This document shows, piece after piece, positions 4,148 to 14,112 of a stretch of 45,363 bases of DNA. This DNA is from Bacteroidota bacterium (GTDB lineage: Bacteria; Bacteroidota; Bacteroidia; Bacteroidales; JABHKC01). Under the pieces are notes generated by a model that searched no databases, had not been told where the DNA came from, and worked only from the letters and a program-made list of their open reading frames with translations. A program made the translations under genes and the position numbers. The DNA is taken from the NCBI GenBank assembly GCA_018692315.1, contig JABHKC010000064.1, positions 1 to 45,363 of the forward strand. The letters are read 5' to 3'. How positions within the stretch are numbered: the stretch's first letter is position 1; each line of letters starts with the position of its first letter.

Positions 4148-4240
4148 AATAATAATTCAGGAAAATTTTAATGAAAAAATATTAGTTGTTTGTTGCAACA
4201 AGGGCTAACATATTTTAGTCTTTACTCAAAACCCGCAAAT

Positions 4241-5953
4241 ATGAAAAACCCAATCTTAAAAACCCCAATTAACTTAAACAACAAATGGGTTTGGTTAGCA
4301 ACAATTTTGCTGATAACCATTGTTGTTTACTTCCCTACCTTTCAATTTGAATTGCTTAACTACGACGACGAAAGATTAATAATTAAAAACAAGTTGATTA
4401 AAGATTTTTCTTTTTATAGTTTGCAATTATATTTTGCTGATTATTACGACAACATTTATCAACCGTTTGTATTGATGTCATGGGCTTTCGATTATGCCAT
4501 TGATGGATTAAATCCATCTGTTTTCCATATTCATAATCTTGTTTTACACTTGATTAACATTAGTTTAGTATTTTTCTTTATTCAACTTTTATTTAACGAT
4601 AAACGAATTTCCATAATCACAGCATTTTTGTTTGCAATTCAGGCACTGCATATTGAGTCGGTAGCCTGGATTTCTGAAAGAAAAGATTTGGTTTATTCTA
4701 TGTATTTTTTGTTGTCGTTAATTATGTATATTAAATATATTAAAACCTCACAGTTAAAGTTTTATGCTTTATCTATTGTTTTGTTTTTATTTTCACTCTT
4801 CTCAAAAGGTTTGGCAATTGCTCTGGCACCAACGATTTTTGCAATCGATTTCTTTTACAGACGAAAAATATTGAGTAAGAAAGTAATTTTAGAAAAAATT
4901 CCATTTCTGATTCTCGCAACAATTTTTGCAATAATTGGCAGTATTGGATTTTTTATTCACAATAAACCTTCGGATATATCAATTGTAGGCAAAATTTTGT
5001 CAACAGGATTCGTATTTTTTAATTATTTCACAAAAGTGATTTTCCCATACAAACTGTCAGCATTTCATCCTTATCCGGAAGAAATTGGAGGTTATTATTC
5101 AATTAAGTTTATTATTCTTACAATTTTGTCAGTTTTAGCAATAGTAGCTTTATTTCTATTAGCAAGAAAAAGCAGAAAGCTGGCATTTGGTGCACTATTT
5201 TTTATCGTTAACATTTTATTAGCTTTAAAATTGTCGCAGATAACCAATCTTGGTTTTATTATGGCTGACAGATATACTTATATTTCTTCTATTGGCATTT
5301 TTATTATAGTGGCTACATTTTTTATTCATTTACTAAAAAGATTTTCGAGATTCAAAATTCCGGTATTAGCAATACTGTTTGCCTATATGTTTTTTCATAC
5401 TGCCATCAGTTCACAACATATATTTGTCTGGCAAGATAGTATTTCCATTTGGGATTCAATTGTAGAACAATATCCTGACAGATCGCGATTTTATAACAAG
5501 AGGGGAATGGCAAAGGTCGATAATGGTGATTTTAAAGGTTCTATTCAGGATTTTAGTGAAGCAGTAAATATTAATCCCAATTACGAAAAGGCATATTATT
5601 GCAGAGCTGATGCTTATGAAAAACTTAAAAAGTGGAAAATGGCAATTCAAGACTATTCAAAAATCATTGATTCTGATGTAAATAGTAGCAAAGCGTATTC
5701 ACTCAGAGGTAAAGTATATGAAAAAACATCTAATTACAATAAAGCATTAATTGATTTTAATACAGCTATTGAGATAGATCCTAACCATCCAAAGCTATAT
5801 GTACAACGAGCATATTTTTTTTACAAAACAGGAGACTATCAAGCTGCTATTCAAGATTATGACATAGCACTCGAAATTAAACCTAAGATGAAGATAGCGA
5901 AAAGACAGCGAGAGATGGTGTTGAGGAAATATAGAGAAAAGTCCTTTTTTTAA
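4241..5953 (+). CDS. TMTC-like membrane glycosyltransferase with C-terminal TPRs (copy 1)
   Basis: The protein is 570 residues from the ATG at 4241. The frame extends to a TTG at 4190, but the ATG gives the same N-terminal length as the downstream paralogue. A first transmembrane helix is followed by an extracytoplasmic loop with NYDDERL. The Asp pair matches the catalytic acidic motif of GT-C enzymes and of TMTC protein O-mannosyltransferases. HIESVAWISERKDL and SAFHPYP are also TMTC hallmarks. About ten helices follow, then four TPR units in the last 150 residues (each with the A-x-x-DY/F-x-x-A pattern). The predicted role is sugar transfer from a lipid-linked donor to a secreted acceptor. 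Donor and acceptor are unknown. A tandem paralogue lies 149 bp downstream. Confidence 0.8.
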   Translation: MKNPILKTPINLNNKWVWLATILLITIVVYFPTFQFELLNYDDERLIIKNKLIKDFSFYSLQLYFADYYDNIYQPFVLMSWAFDYAIDGLNPSVFHIHNLVLHLINISLVFFFIQLLFNDKRISIITAFLFAIQALHIESVAWISERKDLVYSMYFLLSLIMYIKYIKTSQLKFYALSIVLFLFSLFSKGLAIALAPTIFAIDFFYRRKILSKKVILEKIPFLILATIFAIIGSIGFFIHNKPSDISIVGKILSTGFVFFNYFTKVIFPYKLSAFHPYPEEIGGYYSIKFIILTILSVLAIVALFLLARKSRKLAFGALFFIVNILLALKLSQITNLGFIMADRYTYISSIGIFIIVATFFIHLLKRFSRFKIPVLAILFAYMFFHTAISSQHIFVWQDSISIWDSIVEQYPDRSRFYNKRGMAKVDNGDFKGSIQDFSEAVNINPNYEKAYYCRADAYEKLKKWKMAIQDYSKIIDSDVNSSKAYSLRGKVYEKTSNYNKALIDFNTAIEIDPNHPKLYVQRAYFFYKTGDYQAAIQDYDIALEIKPKMKIAKRQREMVLRKYREKSFF

Positions 5954-6102: not shown

Positions 6103-7836
6103 ATGATTATGGATAGTTATAAGCTTAAGAAAATCATAAATAATAATTGGTTTTGGTTGGCAACAATTTTAATATTTACCTTCATACTTTATTTTCCGAC
6201 ATTTCAATTCGAAATTTTAAATTACGACGACGATAGATTAATCGTAAATAATGAACTAATTCAAGAAATCTCTTTCAGGAATCTGAAATTGTCTTTCGCT
6301 GATTATTACGATAATATTTATCAACCTTTTGTTTTGATGTCATGGGCTTTCGATTATGCTATCGATGGTTTGAACCCAAGAGTTTTTCATATTCACAATC
6401 TTGTGATACATTTGATAAACATTTGTTTAGTATTTTTTTTTATTCAACTTCTCTTCAGTGATAAACGAATTTCCATTATCACATCATTTTTATTTGCTGT
6501 TCATTCAATGCACATCGAGTCTGTAGCCTGGATTTCGGAAAGAAAAGACCTTCTTTATGCAATGTATTTTTTGTTGTCATTAATCATGTATATAAAATAT
6601 GTCAAGTCCTCACAGATAAGATTTTATGTTTTTTCTCTTGTTTTGTTTTTATTTTCACTTTTCTCGAAAGGTCTCGCTGTGGCATTAGCTCCTACGATTG
6701 TTGCAATCGACTTCTTTTTGAAACGAAAAATATTCAGCAAAAAAGTAATTATCGAAAAAATCCCATTTCTGATTTTTGCAATATTCTTCAGTATAGTGGG
6801 CAGTTTCGGATTCAATAATCTATCGAAAGCAGCAGACTTTTCACTTTTTGGCAAATTATTATCAACAGGATATGTATTTTTTCATTACTTCATAAAAATG
6901 TTTATCCCTTACGGACTTTCAGCTTATCATCCTTATCCTTCAGAAATAGAAAGCTCTTATCCTTCTATATTTTATCTTCTTAGTTTTTTGTCAATATTAA
7001 TAATAATTACCTTAATTATTCTATCGAAAAAAAGCAGACGATTGGCATTTGGTGCAATTTTTTTTGGCATAAATATTTTTATTGCCCTTAGGATTTCGCA
7101 AATCACATCTGTTGGTTTCATCATGGCCGACAGATATGCTTATGTTTCTTCAATCGGAATTTTTATTCTTATTTCCGTTTTCTTCATATTTTTGATAAAA
7201 AAAATTCCGAATTTGAAAATCCCTGTATTTTCCTTACTAATTGCATTTATGATTATTAATATTTGGATTAGTTCCCAACATATTTTTGTTTGGGAAAATA
7301 GTATTTCAATATGGGATTCGATAATTGAAAAATATCCTGACAGGTCGTGGCCATATTCCAAAAGAGGATTGGCTAAAGCAGATTACGGCGATTATGAAGG
7401 AGCAATTTACGATTTTAGCAGTGCTGTTATAATAAAACCCGACTTCTACAAAATATATTACAATAGAGCAGAAACATATAGGAAATTGAAAATGTGGGAT
7501 TTAGCTATTCATGACTATTCAAAAATTATTTATGATAATTCAGATTGTGCTAAGGCTTATGCATTCAGAGGGATTGCATATGAAAAATCTGATATGTACA
7601 AAAAAGCATTAAACGATTTTAACAAAGCAATAAAAATTGAGCCTGAATCTTCAATGTTATATTTACAACGAGCAATGTTAAAGACTAAAAAAGGGTACTA
7701 TAATTCTGCAATTCAAGACTATAACATAGCACTTGCAATTCAACCTGACCTAAAAATTGCCAAAAATCAAAAATACATGGTTTTGGAAATCATAAAAAGA
7801 AACTACCTGCGAACAAATACTTTGGTTCAGAATTAA
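6103..7836 (+). CDS. TMTC-like membrane glycosyltransferase with C-terminal TPRs (copy 2)
   Basis: This 577-residue paralogue of the preceding gene is collinear along its whole length. It shares NYDDDRL, a long run around YQPFVLMSWAFDYAIDGLNP, HIESVAWISERKDL, SAYHPYP and four C-terminal TPRs. The ATG at 6103 places the first conserved Trp at residue 16, exactly as in copy 1; an ATG at 6109 is equally possible. The most conserved block is also very similar at DNA level, while the TPRs and the loops after the sixth helix have diverged, which suggests different acceptors or partners. The gene ends 13 bp before the convergent hemW stop. The role is inferred from the TMTC and GT-C families. Confidence 0.8.
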   Translation: MIMDSYKLKKIINNNWFWLATILIFTFILYFPTFQFEILNYDDDRLIVNNELIQEISFRNLKLSFADYYDNIYQPFVLMSWAFDYAIDGLNPRVFHIHNLVIHLINICLVFFFIQLLFSDKRISIITSFLFAVHSMHIESVAWISERKDLLYAMYFLLSLIMYIKYVKSSQIRFYVFSLVLFLFSLFSKGLAVALAPTIVAIDFFLKRKIFSKKVIIEKIPFLIFAIFFSIVGSFGFNNLSKAADFSLFGKLLSTGYVFFHYFIKMFIPYGLSAYHPYPSEIESSYPSIFYLLSFLSILIIITLIILSKKSRRLAFGAIFFGINIFIALRISQITSVGFIMADRYAYVSSIGIFILISVFFIFLIKKIPNLKIPVFSLLIAFMIINIWISSQHIFVWENSISIWDSIIEKYPDRSWPYSKRGLAKADYGDYEGAIYDFSSAVIIKPDFYKIYYNRAETYRKLKMWDLAIHDYSKIIYDNSDCAKAYAFRGIAYEKSDMYKKALNDFNKAIKIEPESSMLYLQRAMLKTKKGYYNSAIQDYNIALAIQPDLKIAKNQKYMVLEIIKRNYLRTNTLVQN

Positions 7837-7849
7837 TCTAAACTAAGTG

Positions 7850-8983
7850 TTATTTGTCGGTCCAAAAAAGTTCTGAAAGAATATAGTCTGAAACAAATTG
7901 ACCTTCTGGTGTTAAAAAGCAATTGCCCTTATTCCAAACAAAATATTTATTTTCCTTGAATTTCTTTGCCTTTGCGAAAAAATCATGATAGAGTTTCTTG
8001 CCAAAATTTCTTTGCAAAAAGCTTAATTCAATTCCCTTATTTGTTCGCAAGTTTGTCATCAAATATTCATTATATTTTGTAAAAAAATCTAATGTTTCAA
8101 TTTCAAAAGGAACTTTTCCTTCAGTAATAGATTTTATATAAGATGAAGTATTTGAAATATTCCATTGTCTCGACTCAATATTAAATGAGTGTGCCGATGG
8201 TCCAATTCCAAGATATTTTCCTTTAAGCCAATAATTTGAATTGTGTTTCGACTCGTAGCCCTTTTTTGCGAAATTCGATATTTCATATTGGATAAAATCA
8301 TTTTGTTTGGTTTTTTCAATCAAAGTTGAGAATTGTTCAAAACATTGTTTGTCGTTAAGTTCTTTTACGATTCCTTTTCTTAAATAATTACTGAACACTG
8401 TGCCTTTTTCGTAGGTTAACTGATATGCTGAAATATGCTGAATATTTAAATCGAAAGCTTTTTGAAGATTTTTCCCCCATTTATTCAAGTTCATTTGTGG
8501 CAAGGAATAAATTAGGTCGATGCTAATATTATCGAATCCGGTAGTTTGACTATTTTCAACTGACTTTATAGCAGAACGTGCATCGTGCCTTCTATTCATA
8601 ATTTTCAAATCATCGTTCGAGAAAGATTGAATACCAATGCTTAATCTGTTAATTCCTATTTTTCTTAATTCCTGCAAATAATCTAAATTTAGATCTTCTG
8701 GATTTGCTTCAAAAGTAATTTCCGGATTTTCAGAAATATTAAAAAACCTGAAAGCATGATCCAGTATTTTTCCAATTTTCGAACTGCTTAGAACCGAAGG
8801 AGTTCCACCTCCAAAATATATTGTATTTACACTATCAGAAGCCAAATATTTTTTCTGTAACTCAATTTCCTTAAGAAAAGCCTCAATTAATTCATCTTTT
8901 TCTTTTTCAGAAACTTTTGAATAAAAGTCGCAATAGAAACATTTTTTTCTACAAAAAGGTATATGTATATATATGCTTGCCAA
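7850..8983 (-). CDS. hemW: Heme chaperone HemW (radical SAM)
   Basis: This 377-residue radical SAM protein of the HemN/HemW family starts SIYIHIPFC. The cluster motif is C11-x3-C15-x2-C18 followed by DF, without the extra cysteine found in true coproporphyrinogen dehydrogenase HemN, which points to the HemW subtype. Other family landmarks are GGGTPS, EANPEDL, SIGIQSF, DLIYSLPQ and GIGPSAHSF. HemW binds heme and a 4Fe-4S cluster and is thought to deliver heme to membrane hemoproteins; older annotations call it oxygen-independent coproporphyrinogen III oxidase. The length is normal. It is divergent from the FIST gene and convergent with the TMTC-like gene, so it is probably transcribed alone. 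Confidence 0.92.
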   Translation of the reverse strand: MASIYIHIPFCRKKCFYCDFYSKVSEKEKDELIEAFLKEIELQKKYLASDSVNTIYFGGGTPSVLSSSKIGKILDHAFRFFNISENPEITFEANPEDLNLDYLQELRKIGINRLSIGIQSFSNDDLKIMNRRHDARSAIKSVENSQTTGFDNISIDLIYSLPQMNLNKWGKNLQKAFDLNIQHISAYQLTYEKGTVFSNYLRKGIVKELNDKQCFEQFSTLIEKTKQNDFIQYEISNFAKKGYESKHNSNYWLKGKYLGIGPSAHSFNIESRQWNISNTSSYIKSITEGKVPFEIETLDFFTKYNEYLMTNLRTNKGIELSFLQRNFGKKLYHDFFAKAKKFKENKYFVWNKGNCFLTPEGQFVSDYILSELFWTDK

Positions 8984-9063: not shown

Positions 9064-9081
9064 TATTTTTGTCTATTTTTG
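9064..9081 (+). promoter_or_regulatory. Two tandem -7-like boxes upstream of the FIST gene
   Basis: TATTTTTG occurs at 9064-9071 and again at 9074-9081. Both fit the Bacteroidota -7 consensus TAnnTTTG, 29-46 nt before the ATG at 9110. I see no good TTTG -33 box at the expected 17-23 nt spacing, so this is only half a promoter. Confidence 0.35.
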
Positions 9082-9109: not shown

Positions 9110-9193
9110 ATGAAAGCAGAACAGTTTATTTACCAAGAAAAAGCCAATGCAGAAGATTATAGTGGCAAAAATTCTCATTTGTTCCGGATTTAA
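9110..9193 (+). pseudogene. 5' fragment of the FIST-domain gene, in another frame
   Basis: This 27-codon open frame encodes MKAEQFIYQEKANAEDYSGK and seven more residues before TAA at 9191. The opening MKAEQFIYQE looks like the N-terminus usual for FIST proteins of Bacteroidota. The next frame continues the protein: upstream of the ATG at 9217 it reads FSFVPDLILVFASGN, back to a TAG at 9160. The two frames join cleanly if the five-A run at 9167-9171 had one more A (GKK-FSFVPD). I therefore read this as the true gene start, separated from the body by a one-base loss or a sequencing error. A recoding event is the less likely alternative. Confidence 0.7.
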
Positions 9194-9216
9194 TTTTAGT
9201 ATTTGCAAGTGGCAAT

Positions 9217-10251
9217 ATGCTTACTAATACGGTATTAGTTAATATGTTAAAAGAAGAATATCCAGATTCTATATTAACCGGATGTTCTACAAGTGGAGAA
9301 ATATGCGGAATTACTGTTAGCGATAACACTTTTACAACCACTGGGGTTAAATTCGAGAAAACAAAAATTGCTTATCAAGCTGCTGATATAAAGGATTTTG
9401 AAAACAGTCAGGAAGCAGGCAAGCATATATCAGAAGCCTTTGAAAAAGAAGGATTGAAACATGTATTTGTCCTCTCCGAGGGTTTGAATGTAAATGGTAC
9501 TGAGCTTGTCAAAGGTTTCAGGTTGAATCTACCAGCAGGTGTAAACGTAACGGGCGGATTGGCAGGCGATGGAGCCAATTTTGCTCAAACCTATATCGTT
9601 ACAAATTCTGGCAAAGTAAAAGGAGATATTATTGCAGCTATAGGATTTTATGGTGAAGATATTAAAATCGGTTACGGTTCACTTGGAGGTTGGGATAGTT
9701 TTGGAGTTGAAAGATCTGTTACAAAATCGGAGGCAAATGTTTTGTACGAAATAGACAATACACCAGCTCTGAGCATATATAAATCATTTCTTGGCGATCA
9801 GGCAAAAGATCTTCCTGCTTCTGGTCTCCTATTCCCATTAAGTATGCGAACAGAAGCTGATGCCGAGCCCGTTGTGCGTACAATTCTTGCTGTAGATGAA
9901 GAGAAACAAAGTTTGACATTTGCTGGAGATATTCCTGAAGGTTCATATATCAAACTTATGAAAGCTAATATAGATAGACTAATTACCGGAGCCGAAGATG
10001 CAGCCAAAGTAAGTGTCAATCCACTATCAGGAAATTTACCTGAATTAGCAATTCTAATAAGCTGTGTAGGCAGGAAATTGGTATTAAATCAAATGGTTGA
10101 AGAAGAAGTTGAAGCAGTGCAAGATGTTGTTGGAGAGCAAGCAAAACTTACAGGATTTTATTCTTATGGAGAAATAGCTCCTTTCCTTGAAGGGGCAAAA
10201 TGTGAACTACACAATCAAACAATGACAATTACAACCTTCCAAGAGGTATAA
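9217..10251 (+). CDS. FIST N/C-domain sensory protein (start displaced by frameshift)
   Basis: The 344 residues from the first in-frame ATG cover most of FIST_N (GCSTSGEICG, VFVLSEGLNVNGTELVKGF, GGLAGDGANF) and a complete FIST_C (SGLLFPLSMR, LISCVGRKLVL, GFYSYGEIAPF). FIST domains are soluble small-ligand sensors, proposed to bind amino-acid-like molecules, and usually pair with histidine kinases or cyclase domains. The ATG at 9217 is internal: homologous coding sequence continues upstream in frame to about 9172, and the natural start is probably the ATG at 9110 in another frame. If the shift is real, any product from 9217 lacks the first FIST_N strands. The kinase gene downstream, past a strong hairpin, is the likely partner. 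Confidence 0.85.
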   Translation: MLTNTVLVNMLKEEYPDSILTGCSTSGEICGITVSDNTFTTTGVKFEKTKIAYQAADIKDFENSQEAGKHISEAFEKEGLKHVFVLSEGLNVNGTELVKGFRLNLPAGVNVTGGLAGDGANFAQTYIVTNSGKVKGDIIAAIGFYGEDIKIGYGSLGGWDSFGVERSVTKSEANVLYEIDNTPALSIYKSFLGDQAKDLPASGLLFPLSMRTEADAEPVVRTILAVDEEKQSLTFAGDIPEGSYIKLMKANIDRLITGAEDAAKVSVNPLSGNLPELAILISCVGRKLVLNQMVEEEVEAVQDVVGEQAKLTGFYSYGEIAPFLEGAKCELHNQTMTITTFQEV

Positions 10252-10283
10252 TTTTCTGTTTTTGCTGAATTGATAGAAATTTG

Positions 10284-10350
10284 AAAATGCTTAGCTTTTA
10301 TTTTACAGGGATTATTGTTCCTTTATCGAAATGAAAAAGCTAAGCATTTT
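10284..10350. repeat. Perfect 16-bp inverted repeat between the FIST and kinase genes
   Basis: AAAATGCTTAGCTTTT at 10284-10299 is exactly reverse-complementary to 10335-10350, with a 35-nt loop. The right arm runs into TTTTATTACC, so the RNA hairpin could act as an intrinsic terminator for the FIST transcript. The loop is large and contains a small AGG/CCT pairing. It ends about 55 nt before the kinase ATG, so it could instead be an attenuator or an operator for the kinase genes. Confidence 0.6.
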
Positions 10351-10404
10351 ATTACCAGCATAGTATTTGAACAAAATATTGAATTATTTATACTGATTTA
10401 ATTG

Positions 10405-11652
10405 ATGCACAGATTATTAAAAAGGCAAATAAAAAGGTATTTGCCAAACATTGAATCATGCAATGGCGATATGAAAGTATTTTTAGATGCCATTGATAGC
10501 GCATATAATAGCTATGATACCGATTATGGACGTTTAGAGCGAACATTAGAAATAAGTTCTAACGAATCTTTCAAAGAGCTTTCTGATTTTAAGTATGCGA
10601 TGAGTACAACCACAATGATCGTAATTACTGATTATCGTGGCAAAATTACATTTATGAATGATAACTTTCTAAACTCATCTGGTTATTGCCGTGAAGAGTT
10701 AATTGGTAAAGACTATCGTTCTTTAAATTCAGATTACCATGCTGCAGAATTCTACGATGACCTATTTTCAACTATCACAAGTGGTCATATATGGAAAGGA
10801 GAGGTATGTGATATCACCAAAAACAAAGAATATTATTGGGTTGATACGACTATTGTTCCTCTAATTAATGAACAAGGTAGGCCATATCAGTTCATTTCAT
10901 TCAAAATAGATATTACTACAATAAAAAATGCAGAAATAGAGATTCGAGAATATGCTACAAATTTAGAAAAAATAAATAAAGAGTTAGACCAATTTGCTTA
11001 TGTAGTTTCGCACGATTTAAAAGCACCATTAAGAGCTATCAATAATTTGTCAGAGTGGATAGAAGAAGATATAATTGAAGTTATAGACTTTGATACCAGA
11101 GAAAACTTGCAACTACTAAGAGGCAGAGTCAATCGAATGGAAAATCTGATAAATGGAATATTAGAATACTCACGCGCCGGAAGAGTAAAAAGTAATAATT
11201 CGATGGTTGATTTGAATAAACTTGTTGCAGATATTACCTGCTCTACTGAAGACAGTTCAAATGTAAAATATCATTATGCAAAAAATTTGCCGGAGATATA
11301 TACTGAAAGGGTAGCTATAGATCAAATCCTTAGCAATCTCGTCAGTAATGCAATAAAGTATAATGACAAGGAAATTGTAGAAATCAGCATAAACTTTGGA
11401 ACTGAAGACAAATTTTACAAATTTTGCGTTGCAGACAACGGTCCTGGAATTGCAAAAGAGTATCACGAAAAAATATTTGCTATTTTTGCAACCTTACAGG
11501 CTCGAGATAAGTTTGAGAGTACAGGAGTTGGGCTTGCAATTGTGAAAAAATTAATAGAAGAAAAAAATGGAAAAATATGGGTTGAATCAGAATTAGGCAA
11601 AGGAAGCAAATTCAATTTTACATGGCCCATTGAGTATAACAATTTAAATTAA
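10405..11652 (+). CDS. PAS-domain histidine kinase, soluble
   Basis: The protein is 415 residues from the ATG at 10405; the frame also holds a TTG just before it at 10402. Numbering below counts that TTG as residue 1. An N-terminal helical segment (residues 3-60) is followed by one PAS domain (about 65-175), a short coiled coil, a HisKA domain with the phosphoacceptor His204 in VVSHDLKAPLR, and a HATPase with the N box around NLVSNAIKYN (312-321), the G1 box DNGPG (345-349) and the G2 box GVGLAI. There is no membrane helix or signal peptide, so it senses an intracellular cue or works with the FIST protein. The DLKAPLR H-box is typical of phytochrome-like and PAS kinases that pair with Rcp1-type receivers, and such a receiver gene begins 6 nt downstream. 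Confidence 0.93.
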   Translation: MHRLLKRQIKRYLPNIESCNGDMKVFLDAIDSAYNSYDTDYGRLERTLEISSNESFKELSDFKYAMSTTTMIVITDYRGKITFMNDNFLNSSGYCREELIGKDYRSLNSDYHAAEFYDDLFSTITSGHIWKGEVCDITKNKEYYWVDTTIVPLINEQGRPYQFISFKIDITTIKNAEIEIREYATNLEKINKELDQFAYVVSHDLKAPLRAINNLSEWIEEDIIEVIDFDTRENLQLLRGRVNRMENLINGILEYSRAGRVKSNNSMVDLNKLVADITCSTEDSSNVKYHYAKNLPEIYTERVAIDQILSNLVSNAIKYNDKEIVEISINFGTEDKFYKFCVADNGPGIAKEYHEKIFAIFATLQARDKFESTGVGLAIVKKLIEEKNGKIWVESELGKGSKFNFTWPIEYNNLN

Positions 11653-11658
11653 TCAATA

Positions 11659-12087
11659 ATGACAGAAACCTTAATTAATGTATTACTTGTTGAGGATGAC
11701 AAGGTTGACATAATGAACGTGAAGCGAGCCTTTAAGAAAAACAAGATTGAAAATCCTCTGTTTGTTGCTGAAAATGGTGTAGAAGCACTTGAACTACTTC
11801 GAGGGCAAAACCCAAACCAAAAAATAGTACCACTACCAAGAATAATTTTGTTAGACCTTAATATGCCAAAAATGGGAGGATTAGAATTTCTGAAAATCTT
11901 GCGAAACGATGAAAATTTAAGAAATATTTCTGTATTTGTAATGACCACTTCGAATGATGATAAAGACAAAGTTGAAGCATATAACCTGAATGTAGCAGGC
12001 TATATACTTAAACCACTATCAATGGCAAATTTCATAAATGCAGTTTCTGTATTGAACAATTATTGGAGACTTAATGTCTATCCATAA
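11659..12087 (+). CDS. Rcp1-type single-domain response regulator
   Basis: This 142-residue stand-alone receiver has no output domain. The acidic pocket is E12-D13-D14, the phosphoacceptor is Asp66 in LLDLNMPKMGG, the conserved Thr is at 96-97 in VMTTSND, and the Lys is K118 in YILKPL. The insertion after helix 2 (RGQNPNQKIVPLP) and the MTTSNDDKDKVEAY segment are typical of the Rcp1 subfamily, which takes phosphate from kinases of the type encoded just upstream. The 6-nt gap implies translational coupling. With no output domain it probably passes phosphate on or docks onto a partner; the hybrid kinase 45 nt downstream is the obvious candidate. Confidence 0.93.
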   Translation: MTETLINVLLVEDDKVDIMNVKRAFKKNKIENPLFVAENGVEALELLRGQNPNQKIVPLPRIILLDLNMPKMGGLEFLKILRNDENLRNISVFVMTTSNDDKDKVEAYNLNVAGYILKPLSMANFINAVSVLNNYWRLNVYP

Positions 12088-12132: not shown

Positions 12133-14112
12133 ATGGAAGAAAAAGAGAAAATAAAAATATTACTTGTAGAGGACGATGATATTGACGTAAGATCATTCGA
12201 AAGATCATTAAGGAAAGCAAAAATTGATTATAGCATAGAAGTATGTACATATGCAAACGAAGCTATCAATTTGCTAACAAACAAAGATGATTACGATTGC
12301 ATTTTTCTCGATTATCAATTGCCTGGAATGGACGGATTATCTTTATTGATTAAAATTAGGGAATTAGGAATTGAAAAACCAATTGCGGTTCTAACTTCGC
12401 AAGGAGACGAAAAAGTTGCAGTCGAAATGATGAAAGCCGGTGCATTCGACTATTTTCCAAAATATGATGTCAATCCCTCAAAAATTGGAAGAACAGTTTC
12501 TTCTATGATTAATTTTAATAAAATTGCAGAAGAAAAACGAGAAATTGAGAAATCTTTAGAAAATCACAAACAATTTATTCAGGTTGTTACCAATTCTTCG
12601 CCAAACATAATTTATGTTTTAGACATTCAAAGCTCTAAATATCTATTTCTAAATAGAAGTATTTACAAAGACCTTGGATACTCCGATGAGCATATTAATG
12701 CAAATAAAGTTAATATTCAGGAAAATACAATTCATCCGGAAGATATTCCAAAAGTAAAAAAACACTATAAAGAGTTATCGGAAAAAGAAGACAATAGTAT
12801 ATTTGAATTGGAATTCAGGATGAAGAATTCTGAAGGCAATTGGGTTTGGTTTTTAAGTAGAGATACCATTTTTAAACGAAACGAAGACAAAAGAGTTTCT
12901 CAAATACTTGGCTCTACTAGCAACATCAACAATTTGAAAAAAGTTGAGACCGAACTCATTAGTGCGAAACAACAAGCCGAACAAGCTGCAAAAATAAAAT
13001 CGGAATTTCTATCGAACATGAGCCATGAAATCAGAACCCCAATGAATGCTATTATTGGATTAACAGATTTGTTGCTCTCTGAGGAAAATAATAGTATTGT
13101 TGAAGACAACTTGCAGTCAATCAAACAATCAGCCGATAATTTATTAGTTATTATTAATGATATTCTTGATTTTTCTAAAATTGAAGCAGGAAAATTAATA
13201 TTAGAAACAATCAATTTTAATTTTACTTATCAACTAAATCATATTCAAAAAACATTAGCATATAAATCTGAAGAAAAAGGTTTAGAATTTGATGTAGTAA
13301 TTGACCCAAAAATACCAAATTTCTTATTAGGAGACCCATTCAGACTAAATCAAATAATAATTAATCTTGCCGGAAATTCAATAAAATTCACCGATAAAGG
13401 GCATATTAAAATAATAGCAAATTTAGTTAAGCTGACAGACGATAAAGTAGATCTACAAATAGTAGTAAAAGATACAGGTATTGGAATTTCGAAAGAAAAA
13501 CAAAACAGTATTTTTGAAAGTTTCACCCAAGCCGATACAAATATCACTCGCTTTTTTGGAGGAACTGGTCTTGGTCTGACCATTACAAAACAATTAGTTG
13601 ATCTAATGAATGGCTCTATTAGAGTTGAAAGCGAATTAGGAGAAGGTTCAGAATTTATCTTAGATTTAAGATTCGAAAAAGGTAAAGGGCAGAAGATGAA
13701 AATTCCAACAAAAATTATTGAAAAAGACCTTGCCGGAATCAATATTTTAGTTATGGAAGATAATATCTTTAATCAGAAAGTAATTTCTCAAATCCTTAGA
13801 CAATGGAATTGTAATATGGTGATTGCAGACAATGGTCAGTTAGGCCTTGAAGAATTACTAAAATCGTCTTTTGATATAATTCTTATGGATTTGCAAATGC
13901 CCGTAATGGATGGTTTCGAGACAGCAAAAGCAATAAAAACAGATCAAAAATTTCTTGAATATAAAGATATTCCAATTATTGCTCTAACAGCAGACGCTTT
14001 TCCGGAGACAAAAAGTAAAGTCTTTGATAAAGGAATGAGTGATTTTGTGAGTAAACCATTTGAAAGATTAGATCTTAATCATAAAATTTCTAAATACACG
14101 CAAGGAAAATAA
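12133..14112 (+). CDS. Hybrid sensor kinase, REC-PAS-HisKA-HATPase-REC
   Basis: This 659-residue soluble protein has a receiver at 7-125 (acidic pocket VEDDD, phosphoacceptor Asp60 in FLDYQLPGMDG) and a PAS_3-type domain at about 145-270 with the HPEDIPKV motif. HisKA follows with His298 in SNMSHEIRTPMN, then a HATPase (N box around NLAGNSIKFT, G1 DTGIG at 447-451, GGTGLGL) and a C-terminal receiver with Asp586 in LMDLQMPVMDG. Both receivers keep the catalytic residues. An N-terminal receiver makes the kinase itself a target of phosphorylation, plausibly by the upstream PAS kinase, so the three genes could form a relay. No output domain or HPt is visible in the window, and the final target is unknown. 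Confidence 0.93.
   Translation: MEEKEKIKILLVEDDDIDVRSFERSLRKAKIDYSIEVCTYANEAINLLTNKDDYDCIFLDYQLPGMDGLSLLIKIRELGIEKPIAVLTSQGDEKVAVEMMKAGAFDYFPKYDVNPSKIGRTVSSMINFNKIAEEKREIEKSLENHKQFIQVVTNSSPNIIYVLDIQSSKYLFLNRSIYKDLGYSDEHINANKVNIQENTIHPEDIPKVKKHYKELSEKEDNSIFELEFRMKNSEGNWVWFLSRDTIFKRNEDKRVSQILGSTSNINNLKKVETELISAKQQAEQAAKIKSEFLSNMSHEIRTPMNAIIGLTDLLLSEENNSIVEDNLQSIKQSADNLLVIINDILDFSKIEAGKLILETINFNFTYQLNHIQKTLAYKSEEKGLEFDVVIDPKIPNFLLGDPFRLNQIIINLAGNSIKFTDKGHIKIIANLVKLTDDKVDLQIVVKDTGIGISKEKQNSIFESFTQADTNITRFFGGTGLGLTITKQLVDLMNGSIRVESELGEGSEFILDLRFEKGKGQKMKIPTKIIEKDLAGINILVMEDNIFNQKVISQILRQWNCNMVIADNGQLGLEELLKSSFDIILMDLQMPVMDGFETAKAIKTDQKFLEYKDIPIIALTADAFPETKSKVFDKGMSDFVSKPFERLDLNHKISKYTQGK

Follow-up and report, generated by a model that had tools for sequence, protein, structure and literature searches.

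The window, by which we mean the whole stretch of 45,363 nucleotides analysed here, contains a FIST gene followed on the same strand by three genes of two-component signalling: a PAS-domain histidine kinase, a single-domain response regulator and a hybrid histidine kinase (Table 1). As assembled, the FIST gene is spread over two reading frames. An ATG at 9110 begins a 27-codon frame (MKAEQFIYQEKANAEDYSGKNSHLFRI) that is ended by TAA at 9191–9193, while the downstream FIST frame is closed by TAG at 9160–9162, then reads WQKFSFVPDLILVFASGNM and remains open to 10251. The first ATG of this second frame lies at 9217, with no GTG or TTG before it. Because each frame is bounded by a stop, one can be exchanged for the other solely within 9163–9190. 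The positions that a first-pass annotation had given for the break (ATG 9110, stop 9191, TAG 9160, five-A run 9167–9171 and ATG 9217) hold on re-reading the sequence.

Table 1 Features of the broken FIST gene and of the signalling genes downstream of it.
Feature	Position	Strand	Basis
Upstream piece, FIST N-terminus up to the break	9110..9193	+	MKAEQFIY matches the start of intact L009 and L054
TAG shutting the downstream frame on its 5′ side	9160..9162	+	
Exchange zone of both frames	9163..9190	+	Bounded by TAG 9160–9162 and TAA 9191–9193
Main FIST piece (FIST_N + FIST_C), first ATG 9217	9163..10251	+	Pfam PF08495, PF10442
Five-A run named by the first-pass annotation	9167..9171	+	Equal length in intact L009 and L054
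PAS-domain histidine kinase	10405..11652	+	Pfam scan from 10414; same order in relatives
Single-domain response regulator	11659..12087	+	Pfam scan; same order in relatives
Hybrid histidine kinase with receiver and PAS domains	12133..14112	+	Pfam scan; same order in relatives

The order of the four genes was kept in five of the six relatives examined, namely L076 (genome G346), L009, L008, L077 (G144) and L078 (G020); in L009 and L008 the locus ends within the last gene. In the sixth relative, L010, kinase and receiver matches fall in one frame inside one longer match (frame arithmetic by hand), which suggests that this locus carries a hybrid kinase instead. The gap between the FIST and kinase genes (10252–10404) spans about 150 bases in the window, about 145 in L008 and about 25 in L076 and L009. 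The opposite-strand gene upstream (7850–8983) had no match in any of the six relatives' loci. Further upstream, 4190–5953 and 6103–7836 encode adjacent, clearly similar membrane proteins (587 and 577 aa) whose C-terminal parts look repeat-like; as judged by eye, the pair apparently arose by tandem duplication. Two copies of TATTTTTG lie at 9064–9081, about 30–45 bases 5′ of ATG 9110; we take them to fit the TAnnTTTG promoter element of Bacteroidota, which would presumably place a transcription start just before 9110. A sigma-70 promoter scan gave 7 sites against 6.2 expected.

Both Pfam domains of the FIST family exceed their curated cut-offs, confirming the assignment made in the first-pass annotation. 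The product read from 9217 scores 138.8 bits with PF08495 (cut-off 23.2), matched from profile position 16, and 127.5 bits with PF10442 (FIST_C; cut-off 28.5). When read from 9187, the PF08495 match covers profile positions 1–188 and rises to 147.3 bits. The intact relative L009 was modelled with 17 sequences (mean pLDDT 89.1, pTM 0.88). Its structure model has strands at residues 2–8 and 27–32 with a poorly defined linker between them, and both strands come before residue 36, which by counting along the sequence corresponds to Met 9217. According to this model, a product started at 9217 would lose two predicted FIST_N strands and, if the break is real, would probably be non-functional; translation from ATG 9110 would in that case yield a 27-residue peptide.

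To place the two frames in the context of the family, we compared the gene with 45 loci from genome contigs and with loci from a set of 393 genomes of the order, 20 of which, the window's own included, matched at E 1e-20 or better. The resulting 64 loci consist of the 45 contig loci and 19 order-genome loci, counted without the window's copy (L053) and L004; the two collections may have genomes in common. The remote loci L004–L007 of an earlier search stand outside the 64, and its L003, the same G020 gene as L056, is counted as L056. A single open frame with an ATG 15–40 codons before the residue encoded at 9187 was present in 59 of the 64 loci. The match begins at query residue 1 or 2 in 49 of these intact frames and further in for the other 10, where the ATG distance is an ungapped extrapolation. 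Of the remaining five loci, three are cut at the start of the contig or locus, and the other two are remote archaeal loci (24–27% identity) in which an upstream ATG in one open frame was not seen.

Two of the intact relatives, L009 and L054, link the two pieces directly. MKAEQFIY of the window's upstream piece matches MKTQQFIY in both, and the window's QKFSFVPDLILVFAS matches their QKFNFYPDLILIFAS, so that both frames align to one unbroken protein, as expected if the two frames are one gene. The first-pass annotation had also described a clear coding signal on both sides of the break. Upstream, this statement is carried by the solid homology, whereas composition alone gives a modest signal: codon composition before ATG 9217 places the gene 5th among the 134 sampled from this genome, and 6th among 131 with ATG as the sole start. 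The break is absent from all 59 informative loci and, in this comparison, private to one genome, as would be the case for a singleton error or a recent pseudogene; the family search found only the window's own genome, and the comparison is one with genomes that are not conspecific.

The A5 run, where the first-pass annotation had located the break, is rejected as its site. The C-A5-TT of the window also occurs in intact L009 and L054, with a run of identical length. In alignments A3 and A4, the similarity of the downstream frame to these two relatives begins at 9166, and a two-base length difference directly adjoins the run on its 5′ side. L008, as near to the window as L009 and L054 by protein identity (75%), is without the A5 run and gives no help in placing the break; between ATG 9110 and 9187 the window has one base fewer than L008, at an ambiguous placement. 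Given the fast evolution of the linker and the close relationship between L009 and L054 (85% DNA identity), the exact position of the break is not fixed.

Downstream of the break, the gene shows the pattern of an intact relative. Computed from 9187 onward, the window differs from L008, L009 and L054 by 0.15–0.17 nonsynonymous versus 0.76–0.80 synonymous differences per site, the synonymous value being saturated. Differences to L054 number 79, 42 and 206 at codon positions 1, 2 and 3, and 354 codons are free of stops. Identity to L008 is 0.754 for the window, 0.728 for intact L054 and 0.711 for intact L009; identity to L055 is 0.651 for the window versus 0.631 for each of L054, L009 and L008. 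As judged from these substitutions, the FIST gene downstream of the break is under purifying selection. The divergence of the window is no greater than that of its intact relatives, and there is therefore no sign of long relaxation. The same sequence comparisons indicate a frame-breaking event that is either very young or present in the assembly alone.

The proposed explanation is that an ordinary, NosP-like FIST sensor gene heads a two-component cluster and carries, in one assembled sequence, a single isolated break about 20 codons past its start, which would be either a consensus error (strain mixture included) or a private, very recent mutation. We regard it as highly probable that the isolated break reflects an assembly error or a mutation of very recent date rather than a controlled switch, with the A5 run unsupported as its site. 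Pseudogenisation and a read error, both named in the first-pass annotation, remain the leading readings of a private break in an otherwise constrained gene.

There is about an even chance that the assembled consensus is wrong and that the organism's gene is intact. The gene is otherwise constrained, has no other stops and heads an intact cluster, and the break is absent from all the informative relatives. An error also agrees with a survey of prokaryotic frame transitions, which expects homology-confirmed singletons to be sequencing errors rather than genuine indels (PMC3711429). On the other hand, the site is no long homopolymer, and a second clear frame jump is absent in 309 kb of this genome, in screens that are weak near gene starts.

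These screens bear on the error rate of the assembly. Applied to 309,471 bases of this genome, among them the window, a mid-gene frame-jump screen returned 3 candidates, each of which was judged by eye to be a pair of ordinary neighbouring genes (junction starts, deduced from translations: two ATG and one GTG). The same screen of the relative G346 returned 9 candidates in 419,001 bases, a raw count without inspection. The window's own break was missed by the mid-gene screen because its upstream piece is short; the screen therefore says little on breaks near gene starts. A comparative tblastn screen of low power (40 and 36 homologous 300-base bins) found no frame breaks in either direction. When genes were ranked by coding signal before their start, four stood above the window gene: L080 +9477, L082 +254, L092 and L080 minus, of which the latter two were read by eye along with the mid-gene candidates. 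A high assembly error rate is not visible in the sampled part: the mid-gene and comparative screens gave no clear second frame jump, which leans a little towards a real mutation.

Two of these higher-ranking cases were noted in their own right. In L080 (contig C2 of genome G000), an otherwise open coding frame rich in repeats contains an in-frame TAA at about 9321–9400. The repeat protein at +9477 resembles FG-GAP repeats by eye, and the case represents a second isolated coding lesion in the genome. In L082 (contig C4 of G000), a coding signal at about 110–260 precedes the first start (+254) of a long frame, which may reflect a non-standard start or another frame break at an N-terminus. Since the screens are weak near starts and the L080 lesion and the L082 case exist, error and recent mutation are close rivals.

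To a real, very recent mutation that inactivated the FIST gene in this strain we give somewhat less than an even chance. The frame break stands in the consensus, the sampled assembly is otherwise clean in the mid-gene screens, and the genome holds another coding lesion; on the structure model, losing the two predicted strands would probably disable FIST_N. However, the gene is without a second lesion and its protein without faster divergence, and the mutation would therefore have to be very young.

A natural start at ATG 9217 or at a rare start codon, with the 27-codon frame open by chance, is improbable and was rejected. An ATG does exist at 9217, and L009 and L054 carry Met at the same place; in alignment A1 (17 rows), Met occupies this column only in the window and L009, with L020 having Met one column on. 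However, a check for homologues starting at this Met, suggested in the first-pass annotation, showed that the frames of L009 and L054 continue upstream, with residues that match the window's other frame. Furthermore, 59 of the 64 loci have an upstream ATG, and a start at 9217 would cost FIST_N its beginning, including both predicted strands.

Programmed or transcriptional slippage at the A5 run, yielding full-length protein at a controlled rate, is very unlikely and was rejected: the frames do overlap at 9163–9190 with the A run inside the overlap, but the run comprises merely five As, as in intact L009 and L054, a canonical slippery heptamer is absent by eye (in agreement with the first-pass annotation, which had nevertheless offered a slippage-controlled switch), RNA structure in 9174–9260 is unremarkable (z 0.38; 124 of 200 shuffled sequences equally or more stable) and the break recurs in 0 of 59 informative loci. 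Neither a slippery heptamer nor a stimulatory structure, nor conservation of the break in relatives (59 of 64 loci unbroken, 3 off the end and 2 remote), as a programmed frameshift would have, was found, and the five As, equally present in L009 and L054, are no long repeat tract of the kind linked to phase variation by slipped-strand mispairing. The run is also below the minimum of 7 nt from which the survey of frame transitions flags poly-A/T stretches (PMC3711429). We consider it most improbable that the frame overlap is a real lineage-specific switch, translational or mutational, of a gas-sensing FIST protein in the host's family.

As it stands, the broken FIST gene matters little, and the locus is an ordinary one. 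In practice, automated annotation would report either a truncated FIST protein or a pseudogene at this place, and the break could be mistaken for a switch. The closest parallel for the break itself is provided by the singletons of the GeneTack survey, which are, as that survey describes them, likewise isolated, homology-confirmed frame breaks in one genome; the survey, by its description of the material, covered complete genomes, whereas the window's assembly is a draft of 248 contigs (PMC3711429).

For the protein, a Foldseek search with the L009 model gave four chains of FBXO22 as its best matches (8ua3_C, E 2.0e-11; 8ua6_C; 8s7d_D; 8s7e_B), after which chorismatase and cyanuric acid hydrolase folds matched less well (E about 1e-5). 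A search of solved structures by sequence yielded no significant match (best E 0.49). The likeness to the FIST domain of FBXO22 is one of the fold of the L009 model, with an identity of only 11–13% (8ua3_C 12%). FBXO22 is an F-box protein, whereas the window protein had no F-box match in the Pfam scan and its gene sits in a bacterial two-component setting.

Among bacterial systems, the locus is best compared with NosP, a haem protein of the FIST type that is described as sensing NO and controlling a co-cistronic kinase (PMC8846402, PMC11784011, PMC8738867). The arrangements described are NosP-NahK-NarR (PMC8846402) and NosP with the co-cistronic kinase NahK, which in P. aeruginosa hands phosphate to HptB (PMC11784011). 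Like NosP as presented there, the window gene encodes a stand-alone FIST_N and FIST_C protein, with histidine kinase and response regulator genes downstream; in gene order alone, it is a stand-alone FIST/FIST_C gene beside a kinase in a conserved cluster. In contrast, the window's regulator is a lone receiver in the Pfam scan, without the GGDEF or EAL match of a c-di-GMP enzyme such as NarR, and is followed by a hybrid kinase, and the FIST frame is broken in this assembly. A c-di-GMP regulator is, however, found in some of the NosP systems described and not in all, the HptB route of P. aeruginosa being a case in point (PMC11784011). As a by-product, this analysis describes a NosP-like four-gene cluster conserved in the Bacteroidales-labelled loci L008 and L009 and in three genomes of the same order. 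By analogy, the window locus resembles a NosP system, with putative haem and NO binding.
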